A DNA stretch of 64,000 bases from Candidatus Bathyarchaeota archaeon (lineage in GTDB: Archaea; Thermoproteota; Bathyarchaeia; Bathyarchaeales; SOJC01): positions 62,001 to 126,000 of the forward strand of contig JAGLZW010000019.1 of NCBI GenBank assembly GCA_023131225.1, given 5' to 3'. Below are positions 9,543-28,690 of the stretch, one piece after another. The position numbers and the translations under genes are program-made. The notes below the pieces were generated by a model that was given only the letters and a program-made list of their open reading frames with translations, ran no database searches and was not told where the DNA came from. Each line of letters starts with the position of its first letter. Position 1 is the stretch's first letter.

Positions 9543-9575
9543 ACTTTTTCTATCTGAAACACAGAAGTATAATTG

Positions 9576-9854: not shown

Positions 9855-9861
9855 CCCTTTA

Positions 9862-10155
9862 TCATTTCACAAGGCATTTGCAGGGCGATGAACCACATTT
9901 CGGGCAACAGTTATCATATTTCCTTAGTGAAGCCTCTTCCAAGTCTATTTCAAGAACATTAGCCAATGACGCAAGCCAAGCGATAACATCTGCAAACTCG
10001 TCTTCTAGGGCTTTCTTATTTCCATTTTGCATGGCTTCTTCAAGCTCGTCAACTTCCTCTTTAAGCCACCTAAACGTTCCCACTACCCCTCGTTTAAAGT
10101 CTCTATGAAAATAAATACGTCGCATCATGCTCTGAAACGCTCTTATCGAAGTCAT
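9862..10155 (-). CDS. MazG-like nucleotide pyrophosphohydrolase
   Basis: A 97-residue all-alpha NTP pyrophosphatase-type protein. The metal-binding motifs are visible as EEVDELEEA near residues 33-41 and EDEFADVIAW near 51-60. The C-terminus carries an unusual cysteine cluster CPKCGSSPCKC that could bind zinc. Family members remove noncanonical nucleotides; the substrate here is unknown. It converges with the winged-helix gene, leaving 7 bases between the stops. Confidence 0.85.
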   Translation of the reverse strand: MTSIRAFQSMMRRIYFHRDFKRGVVGTFRWLKEEVDELEEAMQNGNKKALEDEFADVIAWLASLANVLEIDLEEASLRKYDNCCPKCGSSPCKCLVK

Positions 10156-10312
10156 AAATCAGCCCTGACCATATGCCTTCTGAAGGTATTCAAGCAAAAA
10201 TGTCAAGAGGGTAAAACAATGCAAAGGTTCTTGATGAACATAAGAATGGGTCAGAGATACTAGCTTCAACATCTATCGCCCTTTTTAGATAAAGAAATCT
10301 GTTACATGGTTT

Positions 10313-11626: not shown

Positions 11627-11742
11627 TATATGAACCTCTGTTCTATTGAAAACTCGGTGCCGACATAAAAACTTTGAAGAAACGATAACATTAATTAGCT
11701 GAGATTTGAAGAGTATAAATAGACATTAAAGGGTTTGTCGGT

Positions 11743-11928
11743 ATGAGTAGAAAGAAAAAGCGGGAAAGTGGTGCTCCAATGCCAGCAGCAAGTGCTGGTT
11801 TGCTGCGATTTTTTGAAGAGGAGACTAACGGTATACGAATTAAACCAGAGCTTATTATTGTTCTCGCTATTAGTTTGATAATTTTCTGTATACTAGCACA
11901 GCTCTACTATGTCGGAGGACTTTTCTGA
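11743..11928 (+). CDS. Preprotein translocase subunit Sec61-beta (SecG)
   Basis: A 61-residue tail-anchored protein: basic N-terminus MSRKKKRE, the family hallmark PMPAASAGLLRFFEEE (residues 12-27), then one transmembrane helix of about 20 residues near the C-terminus. It forms the nonessential third subunit of the SecYE translocon. The TATA-like GAGTATAAATA at 11710-11720 lies about 25 bases before a plausible transcript start close to the ATG. Confidence 0.92.
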   Translation: MSRKKKRESGAPMPAASAGLLRFFEEETNGIRIKPELIIVLAISLIIFCILAQLYYVGGLF

Positions 11929-11937
11929 AGAACGTAT

Positions 11938-12225
11938 CTATTCTTGGCCCTTGTGAAGAATCTCTATTCGCTGAACCGCGTTTAGATTGACAAAGATTTC
12001 ACTTCTCTCCTCCCTACCCGCAATTTGTGGTATGGGGTTTGCAATAGTTGTTCGGAAAATCACGGCTTCAGCGTTTGAAAGCCAGATTCCAGGCGGTTCA
12101 TGTGTTATAGCCGCTAACGTTCCTTCAAAGCCATAAGTCTGGCTCAGAATTACTAGTATTTTTTTCCCCACGGTTTTTTCCAGCATGTGAAAGATTGATG
12201 GAGGTGGGATAATGTTAGCTGGCAT
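11938..12225 (-). CDS. LSm-like small protein, putative
   Basis: A 95-residue protein. Residues 15-90 have a beta-rich pattern reminiscent of an Sm fold: GKKILVILSQTYGFEGTLAAI for strands 1-2 and EIFVNLNAVQRIEIL for the closing strands, though the strict Sm2 glycine motif is absent. It may bind RNA or act as a scaffold; this is tentative. It is convergent with Sec61-beta, the stops being 9 bases apart. Confidence 0.55.
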   Translation of the reverse strand: MPANIIPPPSIFHMLEKTVGKKILVILSQTYGFEGTLAAITHEPPGIWLSNAEAVIFRTTIANPIPQIAGREERSEIFVNLNAVQRIEILHKGQE

Positions 12226-12383
12226 AAACAGTCCTACCTTCTTATTTCTGTTCTAGGATAAAACTTTATCCCCATTTTCTGCGAGAACAGTCTTAAAGCC
12301 TGTCTAGGATTTTTTCTGAAGGTCTGTTAACTTTAATATTTGGAAGAGGCTATTTATAGGATTTGTGCGGAGAAATGATTTGA

Positions 12384-14201: not shown

Positions 14202-14203
14202 CT

Positions 14204-15169
14204 TTAACTCATGTCGCACTTCCTAAGCAGCTTGTTCCAGCGTTTGTCAACTACCTTCTGAATGTCATCTATTACATATTCGAATTTCGGCGTGAACAAG
14301 TGTCTAAAACGGCGCTGCATTTTCAAATACTCCGTGACTGGCTTCTTACGTTCAGGTTTCAAAGCCATAATCTTGCTCTGAGGAGACAAGCGGTATTCTT
14401 CGTTCACTGCTTCCCACAAAGGAAATATACAGGTTTCCACGGCTAAGCGGGCGATTTCTATAGTTTTGCTTGTATTGTAGCGCCAGCCTCGGGGGCAAGG
14501 TGCAAAGACATGCATGAAAGCTGGGCCTTCTACCTCTAGACTTTTCCGCGCCTTGCTTAGTATGTCTTGCCAATATGCAATCGAAGCTGTTGCCACGTAG
14601 GGAATTTCATGGGCTACTATGATGTCTGCTATGGGTTTCTTGAATTGAGTCTTTCCAGGGATTACCCTGCCTGCTGGTGATGTGGTGGTTGAGGCGCCGT
14701 GGGGGGTGCCTCCGCTTCGTTGTATACCCGTGTTCATGTACGCCTCATTGTCGTAGAGCACGTATAGAAAGTCGTGGCCTCGTTCTACTGCACCTGACAA
14801 CGCTTGAATTCCAATGTCGAAGGTTCCTCCGTCACCGGCAAAAGCTATCACATCAACATGCTCATGCTTAAGCCGTCCCTTCCTTTTCATCACCTTCAAA
14901 GCAGCTTCAATGCCGGATGCGTTAGCTGCGGCGTTTTCGAAGGCCGTGTGAATCCATGGGACTTTCCACGCCGTGTAGGGATATATCGTCGATACAACTT
15001 CCATGCATCCTGTTGCGTTCGTGACTATTGTAGGTCCTCGTGTGGCTTTCATTATCTGCCGTAAAGCAATGGCTGGGCCACATCCTGCGCATGCCCGATG
15101 ACCAGCTGTGAAGAGTTCTGGTTTTTCCACGATTTCTTTTGCAGTGAATTTCCAAGGAGTTGTTGCCAT
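14204..15169 (-). CDS. porB: Pyruvate:ferredoxin oxidoreductase beta subunit
   Basis: The 321-residue thiamine-diphosphate-binding subunit. CAGCGPAIALRQI near residue 27 and TNATGCMEV near 51 carry cluster-binding cysteines; the ThDP motif is GDGGTFDIGIQAL near 112-124 with DNEAYMNTG near 140. It converts pyruvate and CoA to acetyl-CoA and reduced ferredoxin together with the three upstream genes. Last gene of the operon, in transcription order gamma-delta-alpha-beta. Converges with DUF2070. Confidence 0.93.
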   Translation of the reverse strand: MATTPWKFTAKEIVEKPELFTAGHRACAGCGPAIALRQIMKATRGPTIVTNATGCMEVVSTIYPYTAWKVPWIHTAFENAAANASGIEAALKVMKRKGRLKHEHVDVIAFAGDGGTFDIGIQALSGAVERGHDFLYVLYDNEAYMNTGIQRSGGTPHGASTTTSPAGRVIPGKTQFKKPIADIIVAHEIPYVATASIAYWQDILSKARKSLEVEGPAFMHVFAPCPRGWRYNTSKTIEIARLAVETCIFPLWEAVNEEYRLSPQSKIMALKPERKKPVTEYLKMQRRFRHLFTPKFEYVIDDIQKVVDKRWNKLLRKCDMS

Positions 15170-15182
15170 TTTTTATCTCCTC

Positions 15183-16412
15183 CTATTCTCGCACTCCTGC
15201 AAACTGCACATAACTTTTCACCTGTTTAGTCTCGAGGATTTCCTGCAGGTCTTCATAAATACCTCGGATAATGTTTTGAGGCATATCTCTTCCTCCAAGA
15301 CCGTATATATAATTTACAACATATGGATGTGATTGGGCGTCGTAGAGAGCGTGACGGATTTCGTGAAACACCGCTCCTCCATGTCCGCCGAAGCTGTTGC
15401 TTCGATCCATTACCGCCACTGCTTTCACGTTAGCCAATGCCTTTCTGATGTCAGTTACTGGTAGCGGTCTAAAGGTGCGGAGACGTAAGAGTCCAGCTTT
15501 TGCCCCTTCGGCTCGAAGCTGATCCACGACAGTTTTGGCAGTGCCCGCGGTTGAGCCAAGGCATACTGTTGCAATATCGGCGTCTTCAAGATAATAAGCG
15601 TCAACAAGTCCATTTCCATATTTGCGTCCGCTTAGTTGAGCATACTCATTGTGGATATCCGCAATTATTTTTGACGCTTTTCGCATTGCCTCTTCTTGCT
15701 GTCTCTTATGCTCGAAATAATAGTCATAAAGGTCTAAGGGCCCCATCGTTATCGGGGTGTCTGGGTCCAGTTTGAAGGGCACTTTTTTGCCTTCGTGCCC
15801 CATTACTAAAGGAATTTGCCTAGTGCCAACAAACTTTCGCACAGTTTCGTCGGGTAAAACTTTGACGTTTTCCAGAGTGTGGCTGAGGACGAACGCGTCG
15901 AGACACACCATGACTGGGAGAAGCAGGTCTGTATGTTCGGCTATTCTGAAGGCTTGAATTATTGAATCGTACGTTTCCTGCGAGTTTTCGGCGTAGATTT
16001 GTATCCAACCGCTATCTCTCTCTGCCATGCTATCCGAGTGGTCACAGTGTATGTTTATCGGCGCGGATAACGCGCGATTTACGATAGCCATTACCACGGG
16101 TGCTCTGCACCCTGACGTAACGGCGAGTATCTCATGCATCAAGGCAAGACCAGCTGAAGCGGTTGCGGTGAAGGTTCTAACTCCGGTGGCAGAGGCAGTT
16201 AAACATGCGCTGAGGGCGCTGTGTTCTGACTCTGTGCATATAAATTCGGTGTCTACCTCTCCGTCTGCCACATATTCGCTGAACCGTTCTACGATGATTG
16301 TTTGAGGGGTTATCGGATATGCTGCTACCACGTCTACATCTGACTGTTTGACGGCCAGAGCAACTGCTTCGTCGCCATTTAATGCAAGGACTTTTTGTTG
16401 AATAGTTGCCAT
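15183..16412 (-). CDS. porA: Pyruvate:ferredoxin oxidoreductase alpha subunit
   Basis: A 409-residue subunit with the pyrimidine-binding domain (AAYPITPQTIIVERFSE near 34, FICTESEHSALSA near 57) and a C-terminal transketolase-like domain (ADIATVCLGSTAGTAKTVV near 278, AVAVMDRSNSFGGHGG near 331). The SFGGHGG segment is typical of pyruvate-type rather than oxoglutarate-type enzymes. Preceded by a cluster of purines and starting 3 bases after the delta subunit stop. Confidence 0.93.
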   Translation of the reverse strand: MATIQQKVLALNGDEAVALAVKQSDVDVVAAYPITPQTIIVERFSEYVADGEVDTEFICTESEHSALSACLTASATGVRTFTATASAGLALMHEILAVTSGCRAPVVMAIVNRALSAPINIHCDHSDSMAERDSGWIQIYAENSQETYDSIIQAFRIAEHTDLLLPVMVCLDAFVLSHTLENVKVLPDETVRKFVGTRQIPLVMGHEGKKVPFKLDPDTPITMGPLDLYDYYFEHKRQQEEAMRKASKIIADIHNEYAQLSGRKYGNGLVDAYYLEDADIATVCLGSTAGTAKTVVDQLRAEGAKAGLLRLRTFRPLPVTDIRKALANVKAVAVMDRSNSFGGHGGAVFHEIRHALYDAQSHPYVVNYIYGLGGRDMPQNIIRGIYEDLQEILETKQVKSYVQFAGVRE

Positions 16413-16415
16413 TCT

Positions 16416-16703
16416 TTAAGCCTCCCCTTCTCTCACCATTTTTATGGCGTCTGCGGGGCATTCATTGGCGCATATGCCACATCCTTTACAGAAATCATAG
16501 TTGAACTCGATGTCTTCTGTGGTTTTGTTCCACGTTATGGCTGAGTCGGGGCAAATCATGGGGCATAATAGGCATCTGGTGCATTTTTCAGGGTCACGCA
16601 CTGGCTTGAAGGTTCTCCAGTCGCCGGTGAGATATTCCGTTGCCGGCTTCCAACAAACTCCTGCCAGGGGGACTTCTTTCCAGCCCTTCGGCTTTTGGCT
16701 CAT
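16416..16703 (-). CDS. porD: Pyruvate:ferredoxin oxidoreductase delta subunit (2[4Fe-4S])
   Basis: A 95-residue ferredoxin-type subunit with two canonical clusters: CTRCLLCPMICPDSA near residues 41-55 and CKGCGICANECPADA near 73-87. It relays electrons from the catalytic subunits to soluble ferredoxin. Its ATG overlaps the gamma subunit stop (16700-16703) in the ATGA pattern. Confidence 0.93.
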   Translation of the reverse strand: MSQKPKGWKEVPLAGVCWKPATEYLTGDWRTFKPVRDPEKCTRCLLCPMICPDSAITWNKTTEDIEFNYDFCKGCGICANECPADAIKMVREGEA

Positions 16704-17260
16704 TCCGTTTTTGCCTCCCTGTACGCCTCCTTTAATACTGCGATATTTCTTTCCGCTAATTCCTGTCGGAAACGTTCTCTGATAGCTTTTTCAATGTTCT
16801 CTAGGCTCACTAGAGAGACTGCACGGATTGTAGCGCCGAGCATGGCAGTGTTTGTGATGGGGACGTTTAGTATTTTGATAGCGATATCAGTTGCCGGAAC
16901 AGTCCAGGTTTTTTGGGAAGTGACATTCAATTTTTTCCTGAGTTCTGCGGGGCGTTCTTTGGTGTTGACGATTAGCACTCCGTCTTCGGTGAGGCCGTCA
17001 GTCACCCTAACCGTTTTCAAAAGTGTCGGGTCAAGAACCACTGCTACGTTTGGGTTATAAACTGCGCAGTGGAGTCTAATGGGGTCATTGCTGATTCGTG
17101 TGTAGGCCGCCAGAGGAGCGCCCATGCGTTCAGGTCCGAACTCGGGGAACGACTGGATGTGTTTTCCTTCAAGAATGGCAGCTTTTGCTAGAAGTTCGCT
17201 CGCCGTCCATGCTCCTTGTCCTCCTCTGCCATGCCATCGTATTTCTTGAATCTGTGACAT
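16700..17260 (-). CDS. porC: Pyruvate:ferredoxin oxidoreductase gamma subunit
   Basis: A 186-residue subunit beginning MSQIQEIRWHGRGGQGAWTA, the glycine-rich start of the POR gamma family, with FPEFGPERMGAPL near 40-52. First gene of the operon. A TATA-like TATATTTAAG lies about 45 bases upstream (near 17310 on this strand) and a GAGG ribosome site precedes the ATG. The divergent Vor-type operon begins about 240 bases away. Confidence 0.92.
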   Translation of the reverse strand: MSQIQEIRWHGRGGQGAWTASELLAKAAILEGKHIQSFPEFGPERMGAPLAAYTRISNDPIRLHCAVYNPNVAVVLDPTLLKTVRVTDGLTEDGVLIVNTKERPAELRKKLNVTSQKTWTVPATDIAIKILNVPITNTAMLGATIRAVSLVSLENIEKAIRERFRQELAERNIAVLKEAYREAKTE

Positions 17261-17501
17261 TTAACTTTCCTCGAATCTATCGTTCTACATTTGAACTCTT
17301 AAATATACACGTTTCCCTAAGGCTTGCGGAATGCGGCTTTGAAAGTTGCTCAGGAACGTTTAGAGTGCTAATTTTCAGCGGTTTTGCGAAACACTTTTCC
17401 CTTTCCTATCGTATTTGTTACTTCTCAAAAATGGTGCTTGCGATGAACAAAATCCGAGTGTGCACAAATAGTGAGCTATGATTAAAGGATGCAAGACAAA
17501 A

Positions 17502-17735
17502 ATGGGTAAAATAGTAATCGATGAGAAGACATGCAAGGGCTGCACGCTCTGTGTTGACGCCTGCCCATTCCGTCTCATACAAATCTCTCAACGAATTAAC
17601 CCTAAAGGCTACTATCCCGCAGAGTTCGTTGACCCCGAAGGAAAATGTACTGGCTGCACTCTGTGCGCCATAACATGCCCGGATGTAGCCATAGAAGTTT
17701 ACAGAGAAAAAAAGAAGGTTGGAGGAGAGAAATGA
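17502..17735 (+). CDS. 2-oxoacid:ferredoxin oxidoreductase delta subunit (2[4Fe-4S])
   Basis: A ferredoxin-like subunit of 77 residues from ATG 17502 (MGKIVIDEKTCKGC). The two cluster motifs are CKGCTLCVDACPFRL and CTGCTLCAITCPDVA. A longer start at ATG 17478 adds MIKGCKTK, but AAAGGA at 17484-17489 is well placed as a ribosome site for 17502. Its TGA overlaps the next ATG (17732), so translation is coupled to the alpha subunit. Confidence 0.9.
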   Translation: MGKIVIDEKTCKGCTLCVDACPFRLIQISQRINPKGYYPAEFVDPEGKCTGCTLCAITCPDVAIEVYREKKKVGGEK

Positions 17736-18793
17736 TGGAGAAAAAGTTTATGACTGGGAACGAAGCGATCGCTGAGTCGGCGATTCAAGCGGGTTGCCGA
17801 CACTTTTTTGGCTATCCCATAACTCCCCAAAGCGAGATTCCTGAGTATATGTCAAAACGTCTTCCTGAAGTTGGAGGAATATATCTCCAAGCCGAAAGTG
17901 AGGTAGCCGCGATCAACATGCTTTTCGGCGCTGCTGGTGCCGGTGCAAGAGTGATGACATCCTCTTCTAGCCCTGGAATCAGCCTCATGCAAGAAGGAAT
18001 CTCATACATGGTTGGTGCCCAACTTCCCTGCGTAATAGTGAATATCATGCGTGGGGGTCCTGGACTGGGCGGTATACAGCCTTCGCAATCCGATTACTTC
18101 CAAGCCACTAAAGGCGGAGGACATGGCGACTATCATCTGCTTGTGCTGGCGCCCCACACCGTGCAGGAGGCGGTTTCACTTACGATGGAAGCCTTCGACT
18201 TGGCCGACAAGTATCGCAATCCTGTACTAGTTTTAGGGGACGGTTACATTGGTCAAATGATGGAACCCGTTGAATTCAAAGAGACAACGCCATCGAAACT
18301 TCCCCCAAAGGAATGGATCCTTACAGGTGCCAAGGGGCGTCCTCCAAATTTGGTTAAGAGCCTCTACCTTGATCCTGAAGCTTTAGAAAAACACAATCTG
18401 GAAATAAACCGCAAAATTCAAGAGATGATTGCGAATGAGGTGCGTGTTGAAACCTATCAAACCGACGACGCTGAGGTTATTATTGCTGCTTATGGGACGG
18501 TGGCGAGAATTGCAAAAACTGCAATCAGAGTTCTCCGTGAAAAAGGTGTCAAGGTAGGGATGGTGCGTCCGATTACAGTTTTTCCGTTTCCCTACGACAC
18601 ATTTAGAAAGATGGCTGATAGAGTAGGCAAGTTTTTGGTGGTTGAGATGAGCCTTGGGCAGATGGTTGAAGACGTTAGGCTCGGCTTGTGCGGTGAAGCC
18701 AACATCCGCTTTTATGGGCGAACCGGAGGTATGGTTCCGAGTTATGATGAGATAGTTGCTGAAACAGAAAAGTTCGTAAAGGAGGCGTGTTGA
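17732..18793 (+). CDS. vorB: 2-oxoacid:ferredoxin oxidoreductase alpha subunit, VorB-type
   Basis: A 353-residue subunit. GYPITPQSEIPEYM near residue 27, QAESEVAAINM near 53 and especially RGGPGLGGIQPSQSDYF followed by KGGGHGDYHLL resemble proteins annotated as 2-ketoisovalerate (3-methyl-2-oxobutanoate) oxidoreductase VorB rather than oxoglutarate KorA. Substrate choice is inferred from that resemblance. A strong GGAGGA ribosome site at 17721-17726 fixes ATG 17732; a frame extending to 17645 is only upstream read-through. Fits oxidation of branched-chain 2-oxoacids. Confidence 0.9.
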   Translation: MMEKKFMTGNEAIAESAIQAGCRHFFGYPITPQSEIPEYMSKRLPEVGGIYLQAESEVAAINMLFGAAGAGARVMTSSSSPGISLMQEGISYMVGAQLPCVIVNIMRGGPGLGGIQPSQSDYFQATKGGGHGDYHLLVLAPHTVQEAVSLTMEAFDLADKYRNPVLVLGDGYIGQMMEPVEFKETTPSKLPPKEWILTGAKGRPPNLVKSLYLDPEALEKHNLEINRKIQEMIANEVRVETYQTDDAEVIIAAYGTVARIAKTAIRVLREKGVKVGMVRPITVFPFPYDTFRKMADRVGKFLVVEMSLGQMVEDVRLGLCGEANIRFYGRTGGMVPSYDEIVAETEKFVKEAC

Positions 18794-18796
18794 AAA

Positions 18797-19552
18797 ATGC
18801 AAGTGGAACTTGAGAAGGTTTTTGAACGACCAAGGGCCCTGCGTCCTGTGGTGACCCATTATTGCCCGGGCTGTGGGCATGGGATTGCTCATCGTCTCGT
18901 GGCGGAAGTGATAGACGAGTTGGGAATTAGGGAGAAAACTGTTGGTGTTGCGCCTGTAGGTTGTTCGGTTCTTCTCTACAACTATCTTGATGTTGATATG
19001 TATGAAGCCGCGCATGGTCGTGCGCCCGCGGTTGCAACTGGCTGTAAACGAGTTCACCCTGAACTGGTTGTTTTCACTTACCAAGGTGATGGCGACTTCG
19101 CTTCTATAGGGACTGCAGAAGCGGTTCATGCAGCCGCTCGAGGAGAAAAAATAACCACGATTTTCATTAACAATGCAATCTATGGAATGACTGGTGGGCA
19201 GATGGCGCCTACAACGCTTATCGGACAGAAAACCACAACCTCGCCCATGGGGCGGATTCCAGAGCGCGCCGGCTATCCAATTAGGATGGCAGAGTTGCTT
19301 TCAACACTTGACGGTGCGGCGTACATTGCAAGAGTTGCCGTGAACAATGCTAAACACATCATACATGCTAAGAAAGCCATAAAGAAGGCGTTTGAGACAC
19401 AAATAAAAGGTTTAGGCTACTCCATGGTTGAAGTCTTATCGCAGTGTCCAACTGATTGGCGTATGAGTCCCGTCGAGGCAGTAAAATGGGTTGAAGAGAA
19501 AATGGTGCCATATTATCCGTTAGGCGAATTCAAAGTTCCAAAAGAGGGTTGA
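18797..19552 (+). CDS. 2-oxoacid:ferredoxin oxidoreductase beta subunit (ThDP-binding)
   Basis: A 251-residue ThDP subunit with cluster or structural cysteines in [11 protein letters not shown] near residue 24, [10 protein letters not shown] near 51, the ThDP motif [13 protein letters not shown] near 99 and [16 protein letters not shown] near 125. The GMTGGQ segment is shared by Vor and Kor families. Follows the alpha subunit by 3 bases. Confidence 0.92.
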
Positions 19553-19555
19553 CAC

Positions 19556-20116
19556 ATGGAAAAAACAGTTGGAAAACCTGTTTATGCCAACGTCATAATG
19601 GCTGGTTTCGGCGGCCAAGGATTGATGTTTATTGGAAAGCTTTTAGCGTACAGCGCCATGAAAGCTGGAAAACATGTTACATGGATACCTTCTTACGGCC
19701 CAGAAATGCGTGGAGGAACCGCCAACTGCACAGTCGTCATATCAGGCGAAGAAATAGGTTCTCCAGTCATAACCTCGCCGCAAGCATTGATAATTATGAA
19801 TAACCCCTCTTTGGAAGCATTTGAACCTCGGCTGCAAACTCAAGGATTGCTATTTCTCAACAATTCGTTAATCACCCGTCAACTCAGAAGAGAAGATGTT
19901 AAGGCTATTGCAGTACCAGCGAACGACATCGCAGTGGAAATTGGCGAAAAAAGAACGGCTAACATGGTAATGCTTGGAGCTTATGTGGCGCGGACAGAGG
20001 TTGTCTCTAAGGAAAGCATCCTGGAAGGTCTGAAAGAATTTTTTGGAAAGAAAATCCAATTTCTCGACGTAAACACGAAGGCCTTCGAAAAAGGAATGGA
20101 ATACGGCAAACGCTGA
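19556..20116 (+). CDS. 2-oxoacid:ferredoxin oxidoreductase gamma subunit
   Basis: A 186-residue subunit with [18 protein letters not shown] near residues 15-32 and [15 protein letters not shown] near 44-58, characteristic of Kor/Vor gamma subunits (PEMRGG replaces the PERMG of POR). It is the last gene of the delta-alpha-beta-gamma operon and is followed by a hairpin terminator at 20129. Confidence 0.92.
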
Positions 20117-20128
20117 AGAAATACGCTG

Positions 20129-20147
20129 TAAAAACCGAAGGTTTTTA
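20129..20147 (+). terminator. Hairpin terminator after the Vor-type operon
   Basis: TAAAAACC-GAA-GGTTTTTA forms a perfect 8-base-pair stem with a 3-base loop, starting 12 bases after the gamma subunit stop. The descending arm supplies a T-tract. Archaeal terminators rely mainly on T-tracts, so the hairpin may be secondary. Confidence 0.5.
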
Positions 20148-20279
20148 TCTGTTGGATATGAGACGCGGGAAAACTATAAGAGACTCCGCGCGAATTTTAA
20201 AGAGCACTACACAGTATCTTGAGTACAGATGCCATCATGTGCTATCATGGTCCTCAAGTAAATTGGGGAGGTAGAAAAC

Positions 20280-20627
20280 GTGACAGAAGAAGAAAAAACT
20301 GCAAAACCAGAACCTGAACCGGAAAAAAAAGAGAAACCTAAAGAGGTTGTAAAGACGAGTGAGAACGCTGTCCTCATCGGCAGAAAACCAGTGATGAACT
20401 ATGTAGTTGCATGCCTTACCTACTTCAATTCAGGTGAGAAGAACATCTGCGTCAAAGCCAGAGGGCGAGCGATCAGCACGGCCGTTGATACTGTCGAGTT
20501 GTTGCGACGCGCCTTCACAAAAGACGTAGAGCTAAAAAGCATCGTTATCGGCACCGAAGAGGTACAAAGAGAAGAGGGAAGAAAAAGCAACGTCTCAACC
20601 ATCGAGATAGCTCTGGCTCGACCATAG
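20280..20627 (+). CDS. albA: Alba chromatin / nucleic-acid-binding protein
   Basis: A 115-residue Alba protein that coats DNA and RNA. After a 28-residue acidic-basic extension rich in Glu, Pro and Lys, the domain starts at NAVLIGRKPVMNYVVACL (residues 29-46) and includes VKARGRAISTAVDTVELL near 57-74. The loop Lys-Pro that is acetylated in Sulfolobus Alba corresponds to RKPVMNY here. The start is GTG 20280 with GGGGAGGT 10-16 bases upstream. The charged N-terminal extension is longer than in Sulfolobales. Confidence 0.93.
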   Translation: MTEEEKTAKPEPEPEKKEKPKEVVKTSENAVLIGRKPVMNYVVACLTYFNSGEKNICVKARGRAISTAVDTVELLRRAFTKDVELKSIVIGTEEVQREEGRKSNVSTIEIALARP

Positions 20628-20663
20628 ACCTGAAAGGTTTCCCTCAGTCCGCATCCAAAAGTC

Positions 20664-20713
20664 GGGTCTCAGGTTCCCGAACGACAGAACAAGGACCTGA
20701 CCCACACCTTTTT
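20664..20713 (+). terminator. Bulged hairpin plus T-tract after alba
   Basis: GGGTC(tc)AGGT(t)CC at 20664-20677 pairs with GGACCTGACCC at 20693-20703 (about 11 pairs with small bulges), followed by CACACCTTTTTCTT. It lies 37 bases after the alba stop and probably ends its transcript. Confidence 0.45.
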
Positions 20714-20882
20714 CTTAATATGAAGTATGGTATATCAATTCAAAAAAACCTTCTTGAAATTAAGTGTAGCTGTGCACGTTTTGTAATCCTTAAAAATTCG
20801 TTAACTCGTGCCTATGGGGCGAATTCATTTTAAGTTATATCGCGATAACTTGTATATATCGGAAAGAGTCCGATTCTCAGAG
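20714..20882 (+). promoter_or_regulatory. Promoter region of the helicase-nuclease operon
   Basis: The gap between alba and the helicase is AT-rich and without a credible gene. It contains the 10-base perfect palindrome TATCGCGATA at 20838-20847 and a TATA-like TTGTATATATC at 20850-20860. Transcription starting about 25 bases further would begin close to ATG 20883, suggesting a leaderless message. The palindrome next to the TATA box is a plausible operator. Confidence 0.45.
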
Positions 20883-20953
20883 ATGCAGAGGGACGAAATA
20901 TTACAAGCCTAGATAATGCACAGATAAAGGCTGTTAAAGATTCTTCAAGATTT

Positions 20954-23554
20954 GTGGGCATTTTAGCCTCAGCGGGTTCGGGAAAAACTAGGACACTAGT
21001 TGCACGAGTTATTCATGCCATAAGAGTAGAAGAACTAAAGCCTTGTGACATTGTGGCTTTTACTTTCACAGAGCGAGCTGCCAATGAGTTGAGATCTAGA
21101 ATTTTTCTTGAACTAGCAGATCTTGGACCCGAGCTCTCAAGGATGTTTATTGGTACAATACATAGTTTTTGTTATCGTTATCTTATGCAAGATAAACGTT
21201 TCATCAATTTTGAGGCTCTTGATGAGATAAATACAGAAGCACTTGTTTATAGGCTCTATGATTATCTTGGTTTGGATGAATCCTACGGGATGAGTTTTTC
21301 GAAGAACATAGAGAGGTTCTTGATGGATTACGAACTCTATGAAAATGAGCTTCTTGAAGTGACAGTCCTTCCGCCCGAAATCCGAAATGTGATAGCTAGG
21401 TTTGTAGATATTCTTCTAAAAAACAGATTGTTGACTTTTGGTTCTATGATCCGTTATGCTGTTAAGAATCTTACCTCGCAAACGCATGAATCTGAGATTA
21501 AGCATCTTCTTGTAGACGAGTTTCAGGATGTAAATCCAGCTCAATTGAGACTTATCAAAGCGATGATAGGAGATTCAGCAAAACTAACCGTTGTTGGAGA
21601 TGACTTGCAATCCATCTATCAATGGAGAGGGTCAGATGTTTCGCTATTGCTGAACTTCAAAAATCAATTTCCAGGAGCCAAACTTCATGTTCTTGACACC
21701 AATTATCGCTCTGCTTATCATATAGTGGAAATGGCAGAGACGTTTGCTAAAACAATCGAACCGAGACACGAGAAGGAAATGAGAGCATTTTCAGAGAAGA
21801 AGCCATCTAGAAATGTGCTCTTCCAAGAAGCTTCTGATGAGGACCATCAGTCGACTCTGATGGGTGAGTTGATTCTGAAACTAAAAAGTCAAGGTTATCA
21901 ATGGAGAAATATTGCGGTTCTTCTCAGATCTGCCAGAACTTCAGCCCCACCAATTCTTAGAGCTCTTAGACATTTAGGCATTCCCTTTTTCAGTCCCCAG
22001 GTCAGTATCGATGGGACCGTGATTACAGAAGTTTTTGTTCCTCTATTTAAGCTCCTTTCTGCTGAAACGGAACCAAGGAATGAAGAGGAAGAGGCTGAAC
22101 AAGACAGACTTATTCAAAGATTTTCGGTTGGAATTGAGAACTTTTTTCAATCCAGTATCGATGAAATCAGCTCGTTTTTAGAAAAATGGAAATCTGACAT
22201 TCAAATGAATAAAAGGAAGGCTTACAATGTTCGATTGTACCTTTTTGAGTTTTTCAAGAATTTGGGTGTTCAATTAAGCGGGGATGAAGTTGACCTTCTA
22301 CCACAGATAGGGACTCTCACTCAGATAATTCGATCTGTTGAAGAAATTCATCGCAGGAATCTTAAAGGGTTTTCGAGAAGGCCTTCTCTTGAAGCAGTCT
22401 ACAAAGAAATCTCGTATATGCTCGCCACACGAAGTGATGACTTCGGAGAAACAAATATGATGATGACTTCAGTTGATGCAGTCATAGTCACAACGGTACA
22501 CCAAGCAAAAGGGCTTGAGTGGCCAATAGTCATTGCTCCTTCAGTAATTGCAGGAAGATTTCCTGTGAGGGCAAGAGCCCATGAAACACCATTTGATGAC
22601 GAGATAGCAGGAAGATATGGGACATCAGAGACCGACGAAAGAAGATTGTTTTATGTTGCAACAACCCGAGCTATGGATGCCCTATACATACTCGGATTCA
22701 GACAAAAGAAAGCAAACGTTTCAAAGTTTATTAAGGATCTTCACAAAGCAAAGCAATTGAAAACAGTGCACCTTACAAATATCTCTGGCGAAGACCTTCC
22801 AAGACCGATGAAACAACCGGTCACCAAAGATAGCATTTCTACTAGTTTGTCGGATCTGTTGACATACCATGAATGCCCCTTCCAATATCATCTTCGAAGA
22901 AATTCAGGGATATATCCCCCTATCCGAGATGACTTGGGTTTTGGCCGTTCTCTTCATGAAATTATCCAACGAAGAGCTATGGAGCCTGATTCAGTTCAAT
23001 TGTCGAAACTCGTGCAAGAATATACCCATATCCCATTTGAATCCACTAGAGAGTTGGAGATACATAAACAGGCTATAACGCGACGAGTTAAGAGAATAAT
23101 CTCACTTGGACTATTAAAGGGTCAAACACGCGGTGAGGTTGACATTGGGATTTTCATGGAAAATGCCACGATCACTGGCAAAATAGATTGTCTAGTTAAG
23201 AATCGAAACGCAGAGAGTTTCACGATCCTTGATTGGAAATCTTCGATTCGTAAAGAGTTCTTGAAGCGTTACTTAACTCAGATTCAATTTTATGTGCTAG
23301 CATTGAAACATTCTGGAGCGTCTGTGTCAAATGCATATCTTGTCGACATAAAAAGAACATATGAAGAGAACAAACCCAACCTGGTCGAAGTAGATATTTC
23401 GCCCCAGGCACTGAAAAGCCTCGAGAAAGATCTAGAACAAGATTTAAAGGGGTTGAGAGAATTCATTTTCACACCAAAGAGTTCTCTGGGTAGTTGTCTA
23501 GGATGCGATGTCAACTCAATTTGTGGATTCGCAAAGATAGAGGGATCTAGATGA
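20954..23554 (+). CDS. UvrD-type helicase with C-terminal RecB/Cas4-like Fe-S nuclease
   Basis: An 866-residue superfamily 1 helicase-nuclease. Helicase motifs: Walker A ASAGSGKTRTL, motif II LLVDEFQDVNPAQ, motif III VVGDDLQSIYQWRGSD, motif IV DTNYRSAYHIV, motif V VTTVHQAKGLEWPIV and motif VI RRLFYVATTRAMDALY. The last 240 residues carry a PD-(D/E)XK domain (GKIDCLVKN, then FTILDWKSS) bracketed by a cysteine in YHECPFQYHLR and CLGCDVNSIC, the four-cysteine iron-staple layout of AddB/AdnB/Cas4. The Q-motif LDNAQIKAVKD is readable in frame just upstream (from 20909), but no standard start codon precedes it before a stop at 20846; ATG 20883 in another frame would fit after a one-base shift. Overlaps the next gene by ATGA. 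Confidence 0.88.
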   Translation: MGILASAGSGKTRTLVARVIHAIRVEELKPCDIVAFTFTERAANELRSRIFLELADLGPELSRMFIGTIHSFCYRYLMQDKRFINFEALDEINTEALVYRLYDYLGLDESYGMSFSKNIERFLMDYELYENELLEVTVLPPEIRNVIARFVDILLKNRLLTFGSMIRYAVKNLTSQTHESEIKHLLVDEFQDVNPAQLRLIKAMIGDSAKLTVVGDDLQSIYQWRGSDVSLLLNFKNQFPGAKLHVLDTNYRSAYHIVEMAETFAKTIEPRHEKEMRAFSEKKPSRNVLFQEASDEDHQSTLMGELILKLKSQGYQWRNIAVLLRSARTSAPPILRALRHLGIPFFSPQVSIDGTVITEVFVPLFKLLSAETEPRNEEEEAEQDRLIQRFSVGIENFFQSSIDEISSFLEKWKSDIQMNKRKAYNVRLYLFEFFKNLGVQLSGDEVDLLPQIGTLTQIIRSVEEIHRRNLKGFSRRPSLEAVYKEISYMLATRSDDFGETNMMMTSVDAVIVTTVHQAKGLEWPIVIAPSVIAGRFPVRARAHETPFDDEIAGRYGTSETDERRLFYVATTRAMDALYILGFRQKKANVSKFIKDLHKAKQLKTVHLTNISGEDLPRPMKQPVTKDSISTSLSDLLTYHECPFQYHLRRNSGIYPPIRDDLGFGRSLHEIIQRRAMEPDSVQLSKLVQEYTHIPFESTRELEIHKQAITRRVKRIISLGLLKGQTRGEVDIGIFMENATITGKIDCLVKNRNAESFTILDWKSSIRKEFLKRYLTQIQFYVLALKHSGASVSNAYLVDIKRTYEENKPNLVEVDISPQALKSLEKDLEQDLKGLREFIFTPKSSLGSCLGCDVNSICGFAKIEGSR

Positions 23555-24786
23555 CCCTACTCACCAAAGAAAACCAGATCTGGCGAATTGAACCTTCTAA
23601 AAAGACTAGCATAAATGCTGTACGTTATGCTTCAATGTCAGTGAACTGGACTTTTAACAGACTGGCGATCAAGGCATCGCCATGGACCTGGTATATAAGA
23701 ATGATGAGAATAGTTTCAGGCGTTGCAGTTCAACAATGCCTCATCAGAGAGTTGGAAAAGAGAGGTAAAAAAATCATTAAAGATCTATCAGATTACCGGA
23801 CAGAAGATACCTTCGATCTGGCCTTGCCAAATGGTGAGATACTTGACAGCAAAGCAAGTAATTACTATGTAGACTATGTCGGGCCAGAAATTAGACCGAA
23901 TTTCAGCTTGAAATATCTCATTGAAAACAAAGACTATTGCGGAAAAGACTATCGATCATTCTTTCCATGTCTAGTACCAGCTGAGCAGTTCAATGTTAAA
24001 AGGAAAAGACACAAAGATTACTATCTTTTTGCCATAGTCACCTGTATTAATTTCATAAGAGATAAGCTGACAGGAAGGGAAGATGATTGGCTTATTGCTG
24101 CCGTCCCAATGGATTTAGGAAATTTCCTTAACTACAAAAAGCTGGTTCAAGCCCGAGAAGAGGAAGGAAAAGGAATATCCTTAAGCTTCTCGGTCTCGCA
24201 TAACCATACGCTCGAGAAGTACATTCCTTCAAAGAAGAAAAAAACCCACAAATTTTATGTCGGATATGAAAAAGATGGGAACTTTTCCGAAGAGATGGTT
24301 GAGTTGGGTCTGAATAAGGCACATGAGTTCCCTAATATTTCGGGCTTTTCATATGTCAGAATGGACCGTGAAGAGTTTGAAACGTTTCATGCACTTATCA
24401 AGATGAAAATCAGGAATCATTTGACCAAGAAAATGCTCAATACAAGATTCAAGAATATTAACAAACTTCCCCAAAAAGTATTCTCATTCGGTAGAAAACA
24501 TTTCGCAAATCTTTATCCTCCAAAGTCTGAGTTTTTCTTCCTGGGATGGATTAGCTACGAATCATTCAAAGAAAGAATGGCCTCACTGCCTTGCTACGGT
24601 CCTCCTAAAGATAAGATCGACAAGTACAGTAACACTGAAGGTGTGCCATCGAGACCAGGGTTGCTGTATCCAAGAACTACGTGTTTTATATATCCGAATG
24701 TTTGGAGAGGTGGCATGAGGAACAAGAATTTCTATGTCCTTCCTAGGGATCTGCGAACAATGGATGAGCTTTTGAAAATAGTATAA
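23551..24786 (+). CDS. Unknown protein with PD-(D/E)XK-like nuclease signature
   Basis: A 411-residue protein that I cannot place in a named family. Around residues 54-101 it reads as a possible restriction-endonuclease core: a helix with VAVQQCLIRELEKRGKK, then D89 in TFDLALPNG and D99-S-K101 in ILDSKAS, the spacing expected of D...(D/E)xK. The rest is basic with many aromatic residues (for example FFFLGWISYESF near 334) and no obvious domain. ATG 23551 overlaps the helicase-nuclease stop, so the two are translated together and probably act together. It converges with the methyltransferase, stops 13 bases apart. Nuclease function is inferred. Confidence 0.6.
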   Translation: MTLLTKENQIWRIEPSKKTSINAVRYASMSVNWTFNRLAIKASPWTWYIRMMRIVSGVAVQQCLIRELEKRGKKIIKDLSDYRTEDTFDLALPNGEILDSKASNYYVDYVGPEIRPNFSLKYLIENKDYCGKDYRSFFPCLVPAEQFNVKRKRHKDYYLFAIVTCINFIRDKLTGREDDWLIAAVPMDLGNFLNYKKLVQAREEEGKGISLSFSVSHNHTLEKYIPSKKKKTHKFYVGYEKDGNFSEEMVELGLNKAHEFPNISGFSYVRMDREEFETFHALIKMKIRNHLTKKMLNTRFKNINKLPQKVFSFGRKHFANLYPPKSEFFFLGWISYESFKERMASLPCYGPPKDKIDKYSNTEGVPSRPGLLYPRTTCFIYPNVWRGGMRNKNFYVLPRDLRTMDELLKIV

Positions 24787-24799
24787 AGGAATGCTGATT

Positions 24800-26374
24800 C
24801 TAGATGTTTTCTCTCTTCTTGAAATGCAAACAAAAGTGATGGAAAATATTGCTGACCCAGACTATTCCAAGGGCGAAAGGTCGAATTTTGACATCATCTT
24901 GGCACCATAGAGTGTTTCCTAGATAGTCATAGTTTCCCCTTTTCCCACATAATCGCAATGTCAAATCCCAAGCCAGTGGGTAGATGACATGCTCTCGTTT
25001 CACATTTTTCACGATAACTGTTAAGAGACCACGAGGTTTCAGCAAGGTTGCCACTTGCGCATAAACCTCCTTTAATGCTTCTAAGAACCTCTCATAATTG
25101 TCAATGTTTCCTAGATCGTTAGGGTCATTTGAGTAATATTGAAGCAAGCGTCGCTTTCTACGTGATTTCTGGTATTCACTTCCACGGTTTCTCAAAACAG
25201 ACCAATAGGGGGGACTCGTTATACAATAGTCAAAGGTCATTCTTTTGCAGGTTGGATTTTCCATTATTTTCATAGCATCACCTTGAACCATCTTTATATC
25301 CAACTTGTTGTTATGCGGTGGATGATCCCTGTCACCCTGTGGAATCCACTTATCAAGACGTGTTGGCATCTGAGACAGAAGCCTTTCATTTGACACGTTG
25401 ACGAATTCTTGGTTAATATCCATACCGAGGGCATTTCTTCCAGTTCTGGCTGCAGCAATCAAAGTGCTTCCAGTTCCTGCCATTGGATCGAGTATTGTCT
25501 CACCAGGTTTTGTGAAGAATTCGATGAATGGTTCAATCAGTTCTTCAGGGAATTTGGCGGGATGATATAATTCGGTTTTACTCCGTGGGGTCGGTTTGAC
25601 AATGATCCAAGGAGGGATACTCGGTGGGCTCTTTGCTAATCTTAGATATTCCTCAGACGGTCTGAAAGGACTTCTTCTGTCATCTGTTGCTTGAAAAACA
25701 AGAAGATAGTAGACACTTCTATGATCTTCTTCATTGCTATGCGCCTCATTAGCCAGATCTTGAGCTTCGTCAACATCCTTTGTCTTGTCATAGAAGTTCA
25801 CTAATGCTACTTTCTCATCCCTTAAACGAAGATGCTCTCGACAGGCCAACGCAAAAAACCATGGGATTGGGAATGAAGTGGAAGATCTTCCTAAGAAATC
25901 AATCAGGATAGCACAATAACGCTTTGGAACAAGGATTTTTCTCATCAATTCAGAAAGTCTAGACGAGTATACTGCGGCAAAATCATCAAATTCGCTTTTG
26001 TCTCTTATCATTTGCCTGAAGTCGATGAACAAGAAATCATACGCTCTAGACCCGTTAAGTTCTGATTTAAGAATTCTCATTATATTATGATGATTTTCAA
26101 AGTTGCTCACCTTTTTGATTATCCTCTCACCAAAATGTTTCCCTGAATAGGTAACTTCTTTTTTGTCCAGGACAAGTATTCGAGAGGGGTTGCCATTTGG
26201 CCACCTGCTCTTAGTGAAGAAGAAAATGCATTCTTCAACTAAATTTTCAACACTCTCAAATATGAAGAAGCTTTTCTGAAACTTCATCCAGTTTTTATAG
26301 GACAAATCGTTCATACGATTTGGAGGTCCTTTTCCGCCTCGTTTTTTATTTGTCCTTTTCACATCTCGATGCAT
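24800..26374 (-). CDS. DNA N4-cytosine/N6-adenine methyltransferase with duplicated lobe
   Basis: A 524-residue DNA methylase. The active half has motif X LYHPAKFPEELI near residue 265, SAM motif I LDPMAGTGSTLIAA near 289 and catalytic motif IV TSPPYWSV near 388; TSPPYW favours N4-cytosine methylation. Residues about 105-200 look like a second, inactive copy of the region after motif IV: FLFIDFRQMI aligns with the FDYCITSPPYW segment, and both are followed by a helix, a LLKPRG or LVPKRY turn and a strand. It probably protects host DNA from the convergent helicase-nuclease/PD-(D/E)XK pair. The target site cannot be read. An acidic 48-residue ORF lies upstream on the same strand. Confidence 0.88.
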   Translation of the reverse strand: MHRDVKRTNKKRGGKGPPNRMNDLSYKNWMKFQKSFFIFESVENLVEECIFFFTKSRWPNGNPSRILVLDKKEVTYSGKHFGERIIKKVSNFENHHNIMRILKSELNGSRAYDFLFIDFRQMIRDKSEFDDFAAVYSSRLSELMRKILVPKRYCAILIDFLGRSSTSFPIPWFFALACREHLRLRDEKVALVNFYDKTKDVDEAQDLANEAHSNEEDHRSVYYLLVFQATDDRRSPFRPSEEYLRLAKSPPSIPPWIIVKPTPRSKTELYHPAKFPEELIEPFIEFFTKPGETILDPMAGTGSTLIAAARTGRNALGMDINQEFVNVSNERLLSQMPTRLDKWIPQGDRDHPPHNNKLDIKMVQGDAMKIMENPTCKRMTFDYCITSPPYWSVLRNRGSEYQKSRRKRRLLQYYSNDPNDLGNIDNYERFLEALKEVYAQVATLLKPRGLLTVIVKNVKREHVIYPLAWDLTLRLCGKRGNYDYLGNTLWCQDDVKIRPFALGIVWVSNIFHHFCLHFKKRENI

Positions 26375-26458
26375 CTGATTCTCCTACCTTATAATTATAT
26401 GAAATTGACAAGAAGGGTTTTTCGGTTGCCACTTGATTCAATAAGCATATCTGTCTGC

Positions 26459-26605
26459 CTAGTGGTCCTCTTCTGCTTCTGTATCCTCTAGGTCAATTTC
26501 TGCACTAGATTCATAACCACAAGCTTCAGAGTCTTCCATATCCTCATCTGGAAGAGGGTCTCTTTCTTCCTTCTCAGATTTCTTTGTAGAGTTTGTTTCC
26601 TCCAT
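26459..26605 (-). CDS. Highly acidic 48-residue protein, unknown
   Basis: ATG 26605 to TAG 26459-26461. The product starts MEETNSTKKSEKEERD and ends IDLEDTEAEEDH; 21 of 48 residues are Asp or Glu against four Lys/Arg, with no hydrophobic core apparent. It lies about 85 bases upstream of the methyltransferase on the same strand and is divergent from the RHH gene. Such composition recalls DNA-mimic or modulator proteins found near restriction systems, but this is inference; it could be a disordered tail-like peptide or a chance frame. Confidence 0.45.
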   Translation of the reverse strand: MEETNSTKKSEKEERDPLPDEDMEDSEACGYESSAEIDLEDTEAEEDH

Positions 26606-26619
26606 TCTTGAGGACTCTC

Positions 26620-26671
26620 TCGGTATTTCTCGGTATAATGTAGTAACAAGTTAATTAAATAATTTTCGGTA
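26620..26671. promoter_or_regulatory. Tandem CTCGGTAT repeats, putative operator in divergent promoter
   Basis: CTCGGTATTT and CTCGGTATAA follow each other at exactly 10-base spacing (26619-26638), and a third TCGGTA occurs at 26666. Helical-turn spacing of direct repeats is the usual target layout of ribbon-helix-helix repressors, and an RHH gene starts 24 bases after the last copy. The repeats lie between the acidic ORF and the RHH gene. Confidence 0.45.
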
Positions 26672-26694
26672 ATTAGTATTCGCACGTGGTAAAA

Positions 26695-26835
26695 ATGGGT
26701 AAAAAAGTTAAGACAAGCGTCTCATTGGATGAAGATGTTTTGAAATGGATGGATGAGCAAATTGCAACAAAGAGATTTAGAAATAGAAGCCATCTGATGG
26801 AGTATGCCATAGAGCAATTGCGTAGAAACGTTTGA
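26695..26835 (+). CDS. Ribbon-helix-helix (CopG/MetJ-like) DNA-binding protein
   Basis: A 46-residue protein: KKVKTSVSLDEDVLKWMDEQ gives the N-terminal strand and helix A, and RNRSHLMEYAIEQLRR gives the turn and helix B of a dimeric RHH repressor. The ATG at 26695 is chosen over an in-frame GTG at 26686 because it matches the usual family start. It probably regulates its own promoter and that of the divergent acidic ORF/methyltransferase unit through the adjacent repeats. Too short to be called automatically in many annotations. Confidence 0.75.
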   Translation: MGKKVKTSVSLDEDVLKWMDEQIATKRFRNRSHLMEYAIEQLRRNV

Positions 26836-26899
26836 GCATCAATGAACAGTTTTTCGTAACTTACCATGCAGACAAAATTGAAAAAGAATGGCTGAAAAA

Positions 26900-26913
26900 A
26901 AGCGCGCGCGCTT
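26900..26913. repeat. 14-base alternating CG palindrome
   Basis: AAGCGCGCGCGCTT is a perfect palindrome in an otherwise AT-rich intergenic stretch (26836-27037) between the RHH gene and the aminotransferase. It may form a hairpin or left-handed DNA. No coding frame covers it convincingly. A TATA-like ACTATAAAAATC at 26981 serves the downstream gene. Confidence 0.4.
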
Positions 26914-27037
26914 CGGATTCATTCTTCATTTCATCTCCTTTTTGGTTTATGAAGCCAAAATCTGTAGCGAGATTACCGATGACTATAAAAATCAGTTTTC
27001 AACTATTGAATAATCTTCACAACAAAGGTGGAATTAA

Positions 27038-28375
27038 ATGTCAAATTATCCAAAAATTGTTGTTACTCCTCCAGGACCGAAGGCGCGAGAGCTTGCGAAA
27101 CGAGACGAGAGGGTAATTTCACAGTCGTTTGTGCGATTTTATCCTCTGGCAATACAGAGTGGGAAGGGCTGTATAATTCGCGATGTGGACGGAAACGAAT
27201 TCATAGACTTCAACTCTGGCCTTGTATGTCTAAACGTAGGGCACAGCCATCCAAAGATAATAGAGGCAGTAAAAAGCCAATTAGACCGTTTTCTGCACTA
27301 TTCCGTTACTGACTTCCTATATCGAGAAGTCGTGGATGTGGCTGAGAAACTGGTTGAAATTACTCCTGGCCGGTGGGAAAAAAAAGTTTTTTTCGGCAAT
27401 AGCGGTGCCGAGACTGTTGAAGCTGGAGCGAAACTTGCAAGGTGGCACACGCGAAAACAATTGTATATAGCCTTCACCAGCGCGTTCCACGGTAGAACCT
27501 TTGGCGGAATGTCCTTCACAGCTAGCAAACCCGTTCAGAGACGCTACTTCTTTCCCTTGGTTCCAGGCGTAACCCATGTGCCTTATGGTTACTGTTACCG
27601 TTGTCCCTTCAAACTCACCTACCCAGACTGCCACTACTGGTGCATAGATTTCATTGACGAATACGTACTGCAAAAATATATCCCTCCCGAAGAAGTTGCA
27701 GCTTTCGTCTTTGAACCGATACAAGGCGAAGGCGGCTACGTTGTACCTCCACCCGAATATTTCCCAAGGCTCAAGAAGTTGGCAGACAAGTATGGCATAT
27801 TGATGATGGATGATGAGGTGCAGGCGGGAATGGGGAGAACTGGTAAATGGTTTGCAATTGAGCATTGGGGCGTTGAGCCAGATATAATATGCATTGCCAA
27901 ATCCATAGCAGCAGGGTTGCCTCTTGGCGCCATGGTTGCAAAAGCCTCAATAATGGACTGGGAAGGCGGTTCTCACGCAAGCACTTTTGGCGGAAACCCA
28001 GTATCTTGTGCCGCTGCGTCAGCGGTTATTGATGTAATTCAAGATGAGGGGCTGAGAGAGAACGCTGCGAAGCAAGGCGTTTACATTATGAAGCGGCTTG
28101 AGGAGCTTAAAGAAGAAAGCAACATTGTCGGCGACGTACGTGGAAAGGGTTTGATGATTGGCATAGAACTCGTTGAGGACAAGGTCAGCAAAAAGCCTGC
28201 AGCAAAAAAGGCAGCAGAGGTCATGACGCGAAGTTGGAAACGAGGCGTGGCGGTGATAACCTGTGGCAAGTCAACAATACGATTGGCGCCTCCCCTCATT
28301 ATAACGCGGGAACTTGTGGACGCAGGGCTGGACATCATAGAGGACGCAATCAAACATGTAGAAAAAGAAGGCTAA
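27038..28375 (+). CDS. Class III PLP aminotransferase (GABA/ornithine-type)
   Basis: A 445-residue fold-type I PLP enzyme. FFGNSGAETVEAGAKLAR near residue 117 binds the cofactor phosphate, SAFHGRTFGGM near 147 stacks on PLP, FEPIQGEGGYVVPP near 226 and MMDDEVQAGMGRTGK near 255 hold the cofactor, and the Schiff-base lysine is in CIAKSIAAGLPLGA near 288. The family includes 4-aminobutyrate and ornithine aminotransferases and the broad-specificity amino-acid racemases of Thermococcales; sequence alone does not decide among these. AAAGGTGG sits just before the ATG. Transcribed alone after the accessory island. Confidence 0.9.
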   Translation: MSNYPKIVVTPPGPKARELAKRDERVISQSFVRFYPLAIQSGKGCIIRDVDGNEFIDFNSGLVCLNVGHSHPKIIEAVKSQLDRFLHYSVTDFLYREVVDVAEKLVEITPGRWEKKVFFGNSGAETVEAGAKLARWHTRKQLYIAFTSAFHGRTFGGMSFTASKPVQRRYFFPLVPGVTHVPYGYCYRCPFKLTYPDCHYWCIDFIDEYVLQKYIPPEEVAAFVFEPIQGEGGYVVPPPEYFPRLKKLADKYGILMMDDEVQAGMGRTGKWFAIEHWGVEPDIICIAKSIAAGLPLGAMVAKASIMDWEGGSHASTFGGNPVSCAAASAVIDVIQDEGLRENAAKQGVYIMKRLEELKEESNIVGDVRGKGLMIGIELVEDKVSKKPAAKKAAEVMTRSWKRGVAVITCGKSTIRLAPPLIITRELVDAGLDIIEDAIKHVEKEG

Positions 28376-28578
28376 AACCCTTTTTCTTCCATTCTACTGA
28401 AAACCTATTTTAAACCATAACGTCTGATTTTGCAGATTGAGGATATAAAGTAGTGCTTAAGTTGCGAAACTGGCGAGACGTTTGGCAATATTGCACCGCT
28501 CTGCCTTGGAGGAGTGTAAATATGGAAGGTGAAAGCGATGGCGATTCGAAGCGTAAAAAAGCAGAGAGGGGTCTAAAA

Positions 28579-28680
28579 TGGGCGCAGATAATGTTAAGCA
28601 ACTCAGTCTCGCCAAAACAACCCAACAATCGCTACTATCCCTCGTCTTCAACCTTGGCGGCGTTTTTGCAGGTTAAATTA
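28579..28680 (+). pseudogene. Fragment resembling the start of an MgtE-like transporter domain
   Basis: From ATG 28579 a frame reads MGADNVKQ, then SLLSLVFNLGGVFAG, then a TAA stop at 28675, and continues in frame as IIGF. This resembles the first helix of archaeal MgtE-type cation transporter domains, which usually pair with PhoU/TrkA-C genes like the relic immediately downstream. Too short and broken to function; the identification is tentative. Confidence 0.35.
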
Positions 28681-28690
28681 TAGGCTTCAT

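Follow-up and report, generated by a model that had tools for sequence, protein, structure and literature searches.

The locus studied here raises the question of why a bathyarchaeal genome carries, between housekeeping genes, a helicase–nuclease fusion, an orphan protein and a DNA methyltransferase packed together, and what these genes may do in common. They lie in a window of 64,000 nt (the whole stretch analysed, to which all coordinates refer) from Candidatus Bathyarchaeota archaeon GCA_023131225.1, contig JAGLZW010000019.1, positions 62,001-126,000. A first-pass annotation made from the DNA letters had placed a candidate restriction or defence module at 20850-26835, and all its genes are present where it put them, apart from the start of the helicase gene. 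Sequence comparison of the copies found shows a mobile, co-inherited set of the methyltransferase, the helicase–nuclease and the 411-residue orphan protein, called U411 below. On balance, we regard this set as a horizontally acquired, restriction-modification (R-M)-like defence module of three co-inherited genes. Most likely, it is a mobile R-M defence system with a layout that was not described before. We base this reading as mobile DNA defence on the finding that the three genes are neighbours again in a distant bathyarchaeon and on a plasmid of Haloferax.

The search for U411 covered 201 relatives, 257 genomes of the class and 398 of the phylum, viral contigs, phages and plasmids, as well as pattern scans of the genome collection; haloarchaeal genomes were searched by peptide-pattern scans with heuristic seed patterns, and the three copies are those found rather than a census. 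Two homologues were revealed, both with the same helicase and methyltransferase genes adjacent, while none was found in the viral contigs and phages. The first belongs to Candidatus Bathyarchaeota archaeon A05DMB-2 (G101; loci L063 and L071), a member of a different family within the order. The second is encoded on the Haloferax lucentense plasmid pSVX82-3 (L169), which comes from another phylum. The co-occurrence in unrelated genomes that had been proposed as a check of the first-pass annotation is therefore found both within Bathyarchaeia and on a Haloferax plasmid. In A05DMB-2 (L063), the methyltransferase gene (8511-9524) is convergent to the U411 gene (9539-10906), which is followed by the helicase gene (10910-13654), with the order and orientations seen in the window, whereas on the plasmid the methyltransferase (8374-9258), helicase (9272-11968) and U411 (12001-13389) genes run in one direction. 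Thus, the layouts differ, being convergent in Bathyarchaeia and tandem on the plasmid, but the set stays complete. Identity to the window copy is 28-32% for U411, 31-35% for the helicase and 41-44% for the methyltransferase. Across the phyla, A05DMB-2 and Haloferax share 45, 47 and 60%, respectively, and therefore the set moved as a unit.

A chance neighbourhood of the three genes in a variable region might be suggested by the few copies found and by the two small open reading frames (ORFs) of the locus, encoding an acidic and a ribbon-helix-helix (RHH) protein, which look incidental. However, this explanation is largely refuted by the adjacency of the same three families at three loci of distant archaea, with helicases that form one exclusive clade, and we consider it hardly credible. 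Independent occurrence of the families, which had been named earlier as an argument against a common unit, is seen in part: the trio co-occurs, while the helicase and methyltransferase families are also met separately with other partners.

In the window, the natural unit is a 6,268-bp insertion (Table 1), slightly larger than the interval initially annotated and flanked by housekeeping genes (an Alba-like gene and an aminotransferase gene). Its gene content is exactly the helicase–nuclease, U411, the methyltransferase and the acidic and RHH ORFs. In a blastn comparison with the congener G001, window positions 13001-20715 correspond to 5255-12971 of its locus L283, and 26984-28688 to 12994-14699; in G001, these flank matches, about 97% identical to the window, are contiguous apart from 22 bp. 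Four relatives (G001, G009, G004 and G003) have no insertion at this site. The 22 bp absent from the window are a part of a CTATCT...AGATAG hairpin in G001 and G009. No direct or inverted repeats of at least 9 bp join the two edges of the insertion, and none occur within either edge. The 75 bp of the right edge recur at the same locus of G010 with about 85-89% identity, which suggests that an integration site may have been reused. The empty site (L283:12966-12993) bears this small hairpin, replaced by the insertion. In G010, the right-edge sequence adjoins a short ORF with a weak similarity to the N-terminus of integrases (L287:7307-7660).

Mobile-element or defence genes also surround the other copies: an integrase, transposases, ParA and Orc1/Cdc6 genes are located near the module of pSVX82-3, and the module of A05DMB-2 has genes for an integrase, a terminase-like protein and a prokaryotic Argonaute within the same 20 kb. 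The Argonaute-like gene (L063:4519-6744; PADLOC PprPIWI, 1e-72) is about 1.8 kb from the module.

The helicase–nuclease matches the Pfam families UvrD-helicase (PF00580, 8.5e-51), UvrD_C (PF13361, 1.1e-30) and PDDEXK_1 (PF12705, 7.3e-22), all above the cut-off. In the alignment of the three module helicases, Walker A and B and the helicase motifs are invariant, as are the nuclease residues H..D..D-x-K..Q..Y and the AddB/Cas4-type cysteines C..C-x2-C-x5-C. The frame ends in an ATGA overlap with the start of U411; this coupling, the residues D89, D99 and K101 of U411 and the convergent methyltransferase had all been read exactly in the first-pass annotation. The helicase start near 20850 has to be revised, as there is no start codon there: within 20849-20956, no ATG, GTG or TTG is present ahead of GTG 20954. 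Homologous helicases start about 18 codons upstream of this GTG, where the window has ATT 20900 behind GAGGGA, and because the homologues start further upstream at a place without a normal codon here, we assume either a rare ATT 20900 start or a truncated start at GTG 20954.

In the maximum-likelihood tree of 19 helicases, the three U411-linked ones form one clade (support 99/100), and the nearest sister group is represented by the L064 and L072 helicases, which are located beside type III Mod/Res genes (80/81). With a profile built from the three U411-linked helicases themselves, these score 1496-1621 bits against 421 for the next relatives. The clade is present in two of the 163 genomes of the order, the same two that carry U411. 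Sister helicases neighbour Mod/Res (L064, L072 and L073, each with a ResIII-type match), Mod alone as far as seen (L175), a C5-methyltransferase (L077, L078) or TmtA (L075), in agreement with PMC5704561.

These data bear on the possibility that the locus represents a DNA repair or recombination module unrelated to defence, in which the methyltransferase is incidental. Enzymes of the UvrD/RecB type do act in repair, and the likeness of the helicase to GajB, whose profiles are its top PADLOC matches and cover the helicase part only, is at the family level. Nevertheless, the sporadic distribution, the empty sites in close relatives, the plasmid location and the restriction neighbours of the sister helicases make a repair function very improbable. 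A core repair helicase, which had been envisaged at the outset as an argument against a defence module, was rejected, as four relatives lack the gene at this locus and the clade is restricted, within the order, to the two genomes mentioned.

In U411, F88-D89 and D99-x-K101 (F-D89-x9-D99-x-K101) are invariant in all three copies, as are R50..I54..G57-V58..Q61..L64..R66..L68 before this motif and Y106 and Y109 after it. The order and spacing D-x9-D-x-K fit a PD-(D/E)XK site, and we infer that U411 is a candidate nuclease of this kind. Alternatively, U411 may be a recognition (specificity) subunit that does not cut, UvrD-Cas4 being the sole nuclease of a type I/III-like recognise–translocate–cut system. 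The large size of the family (411-462 amino acids) agrees with this role, as does the C-terminal half behind the motif region, which is long and divergent and could be a recognition domain, and so do the intact, invariant active site of the helicase–nuclease and its translational coupling with U411. Against it stand the invariance of D89, D99 and K101 in every copy, in a helix-strand-strand context of a low-confidence model, and the presence in each copy of a methyltransferase that must already recognise the site; a non-cutting U411 thus appears unlikely.

The methyltransferase gene is convergent with that of U411 across a 13-bp gap. In this protein, METHYLTRANSFERASE, motif I (DPMAGTGST) comes ahead of motif IV (TSPPYW), and the order is the same in those near relatives for which the two motifs were found. 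The core comprises about 300 amino acids, and the best PADLOC matches are type II methyltransferases. The extra residues of the window protein (25625-26251) are located between a conserved N-terminal strip and motif X/I; they are absent from the relatives and have no family match. The TSPPY motif is typical of N4-cytosine enzymes. With its TSPPYW, the module methyltransferase is probably an N4-cytosine enzyme, for which the one support found here is that a methyltransferase of the wider family in G037 adjoins an MvaI/BcnI-family restriction enzyme (1e-46; L304). Related methyltransferases without U411 have other small neighbours, which are unrelated to U411 where tested.

This leads to the other version of the module, in which U411 and the methyltransferase would be an ordinary type II pair, and UvrD-Cas4 an accessory, dispensable for restriction, which would remove phage DNA once it is cut or mend breaks in the cell's own DNA in a RecBCD-like manner. 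Such an arrangement accords with the pairing of related methyltransferases with a single small gene (once the MvaI/BcnI enzyme) and no helicase, and with the ancillary role of UvrD-Cas4 proposed in PMC5704561. However, a helicase accompanies all three U411 copies and its clade is exclusive to them; the window, moreover, has the helicase gene ahead of that of U411 and coupled to it, so that we see the accessory role as possible but somewhat unlikely.

A bolder reading, which we consider less likely than not, is a distinct archaeal R-M type in which a new, modification-sensing U411 family would load a processive helicase–nuclease of superfamily 1 (SF1), rather than a superfamily 2 (SF2) motor, onto unmethylated DNA, and which may spread between archaeal phyla on plasmids and islands. 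The preferred explanation is the R-M-like defence module named at the outset; its confidence overlaps with those of its rivals, since two of these merely vary the same module. In this explanation, we suppose that the methyltransferase would mark the host copies of a short motif, while U411 would read the same motif when it is unmodified and nick or cut there via its D-x9-D-x-K site. U411 might act in a complex with the UvrD-Cas4 enzyme, which is encoded on the same transcript, or hand over to it, and this enzyme would then use ATP to unwind and shred the invading DNA. A U411–helicase complex agrees with the ATGA coupling in the window and with the adjacency of the two genes in the other copies.

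Several points weigh against a defence system in which U411 is the nuclease. The defence role of all three copies is predicted from their genes, and only three copies were found, which means that conservation rests on few sequences. The three module methyltransferases form a clade weakly (62/27). U411 matches nothing in Pfam, PADLOC or the PDB sequences, and searches of NCBIfam and PHROGs gave no convincing match. The PD-(D/E)XK-like label originally given to it is a reading of the motif residues: AlphaFold2, run with two sequences, gave a mean predicted local distance difference test (pLDDT) of 35 for the full length and of 40 for the core (predicted template modelling score 0.40), the core model having a helix-strand-strand around the motif at a confidence too low to use, and a Foldseek search against the PDB gave no match. 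Moreover, this particular copy could be impaired, judging by a helicase gene without a normal start and a methyltransferase with a unique insertion.

Hudaiberdiev et al. 2017 (PMC5704561) connected fusions of UvrD with Cas4 (pfam12705) with loci of type III R-M and of Dcm/Vsr; they called UvrD-Cas4 a component of multiple defence systems and proposed its ancillary role across several pathways. The module helicase shares the architecture of this family (UvrD helicase plus PDDEXK_1 nuclease) and the location beside DNA modification genes. While the contexts given in the relevant section of that paper are type III Mod plus Res and Dcm with or without Vsr, the partners here are U411 and a type II-like amino-methyltransferase; Res, Mod, Dcm and Vsr are absent, and the module helicases make up a separate clade. 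The text of section 8 of PMC5704561 describes no U411-type partner with an amino-methyltransferase, but the legend of its Figure 6 names, for one of the loci, a PD-DExK nuclease that it does not specify further, so that a precedent is conceivable. The first-pass suggestion of a new R-M variant consequently stands for the partners and not for the link between helicase and modification, which is not new because the helicase belongs to the published family.

The suggestion that the set is none of the named systems agrees with our comparison: no Gabija, DISARM or BREX partner was found in the module, and PADLOC is blank for U411. Gabija (GajAB) has a UvrD-family helicase in common with the module, but GajA is lacking here and a methyltransferase is present; as to the ATPase-TOPRIM protein GajA, U411 has no PADLOC or Pfam match, and the methyltransferase matches methyltransferase families only, among the matches listed. 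No DISARM or BREX signatures (DrmA/DrmB, PglZ/BrxC) were seen in the module proteins, with the best 25 PADLOC matches considered for the helicase and methyltransferase. AddAB and RecBCD resemble the module in the SF1 helicase, RecB-type nuclease and AddB-like iron–sulphur (Fe-S) cysteine pattern, but they are core systems, in contrast to this sporadic, mobile one, which has no AddB/RecC-type partner; a second helicase-like nuclease subunit, as in AddAB or AdnAB, is not recognised in U411, which has no helicase or nuclease family match. A type III R-M system with an extra upstream helicase-like ATPase (PMC8259958) likewise has a third ATPase gene beside modification and restriction genes, but that ATPase is described as an SF2 protein lacking a nuclease motif, whereas the module helicase is of SF1 with a nuclease. 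Neither a large Mod subunit nor a ResIII (SF2) match was found among the module proteins, and Mod/Res are absent. The type II pairs of the wider methyltransferase family (G037, L304) share the TSPPY-motif enzyme and an adjoining restriction gene; they have no helicase, and their partner ORFs tested are unrelated to U411 in sequence. UvrD is nowhere named in a survey of archaeal immunity (PMC12988326), and our literature searches found no description of the helicase–nuclease, U411 and amino-methyltransferase trio.

The module adds to archaeal defence a set that PADLOC does not recognise as such. A part of UvrD-Cas4 fusions in several defence systems has been predicted since 2017, and a compact trio with one orphan partner makes their role testable; direct testing is feasible, since one copy is plasmid-borne in a Haloferax strain that has been sequenced and this genus has a genetic toolbox.

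Table 1. Features of the acquired segment (ORF, open reading frame; RHH, ribbon-helix-helix)
Feature	Position	Strand	Basis or remark
UvrD (SF1) helicase and RecB/Cas4-type nuclease fusion, four Fe-S-type cysteines	20900..23554	+	Pfam, start scan, alignment; start uncertain (ATT 20900 or GTG 20954)
U411, orphan family, candidate nuclease/recognition subunit	23551..24786	+	No family match; 28-32% identity to two homologues
Amino (N6/N4) DNA methyltransferase, ~210-residue insertion (residues ~42-250)	24800..26374	-	N6_N4_Mtase 6.6e-28
48-residue acidic ORF	26459..26605	-	Lies in the insertion; not conserved with the module
Three TCGGTA copies (26620, 26630, 26666), possible operator	26620..26671	.	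Between the divergent acidic and RHH ORFs
49-residue RHH protein	26686..26835	+	RHH_1 21.1 bits, cut-off 20.5; not conserved with the module
Acquired segment with the module	20716..26983	.	blastn against G001; empty in G009, G004, G003
Right-edge sequence common to G010	26911..26984	.	Beside an integrase-N-terminus-like ORF in G010

The acidic ORF and the RHH ORF are divergent around repeats, as described at first; the repeats are the three TCGGTA copies. The inclusion of the two ORFs in the module as an acidic protein and an RHH repressor does not hold, as neither has a counterpart beside the other two copies: no homologues were found at the A05DMB-2 locus or among the annotated neighbours of the Haloferax plasmid copy.

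Two candidates for further relatives of U411 were rejected. The weak match in G468 (5e-4) is a 184-residue ORF with an RHH-like beginning and without partner genes, and sequence comparison separated U411 from the small partners of related methyltransferases (L068-L070). Related methyltransferases at L303:1148-2772 and L309:3143-4755 are convergent to an ORF of 233 residues, the same length in the two genomes; that of L303 has no convincing family match, and this ORF is a candidate restriction enzyme.

Among the relatives of the helicase, a UvrD-Cas4 helicase–nuclease gene is followed 4 bp later by that of a TmtA-type protein (L075:8013-13886; PADLOC 5e-72); this combination was not encountered in the literature examined. 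In two contigs classed as viral in IMG/VR (L072:4166-13147 and L073:4506-12800), the genes next after UvrD-Cas4 are those of type III Mod and Res.

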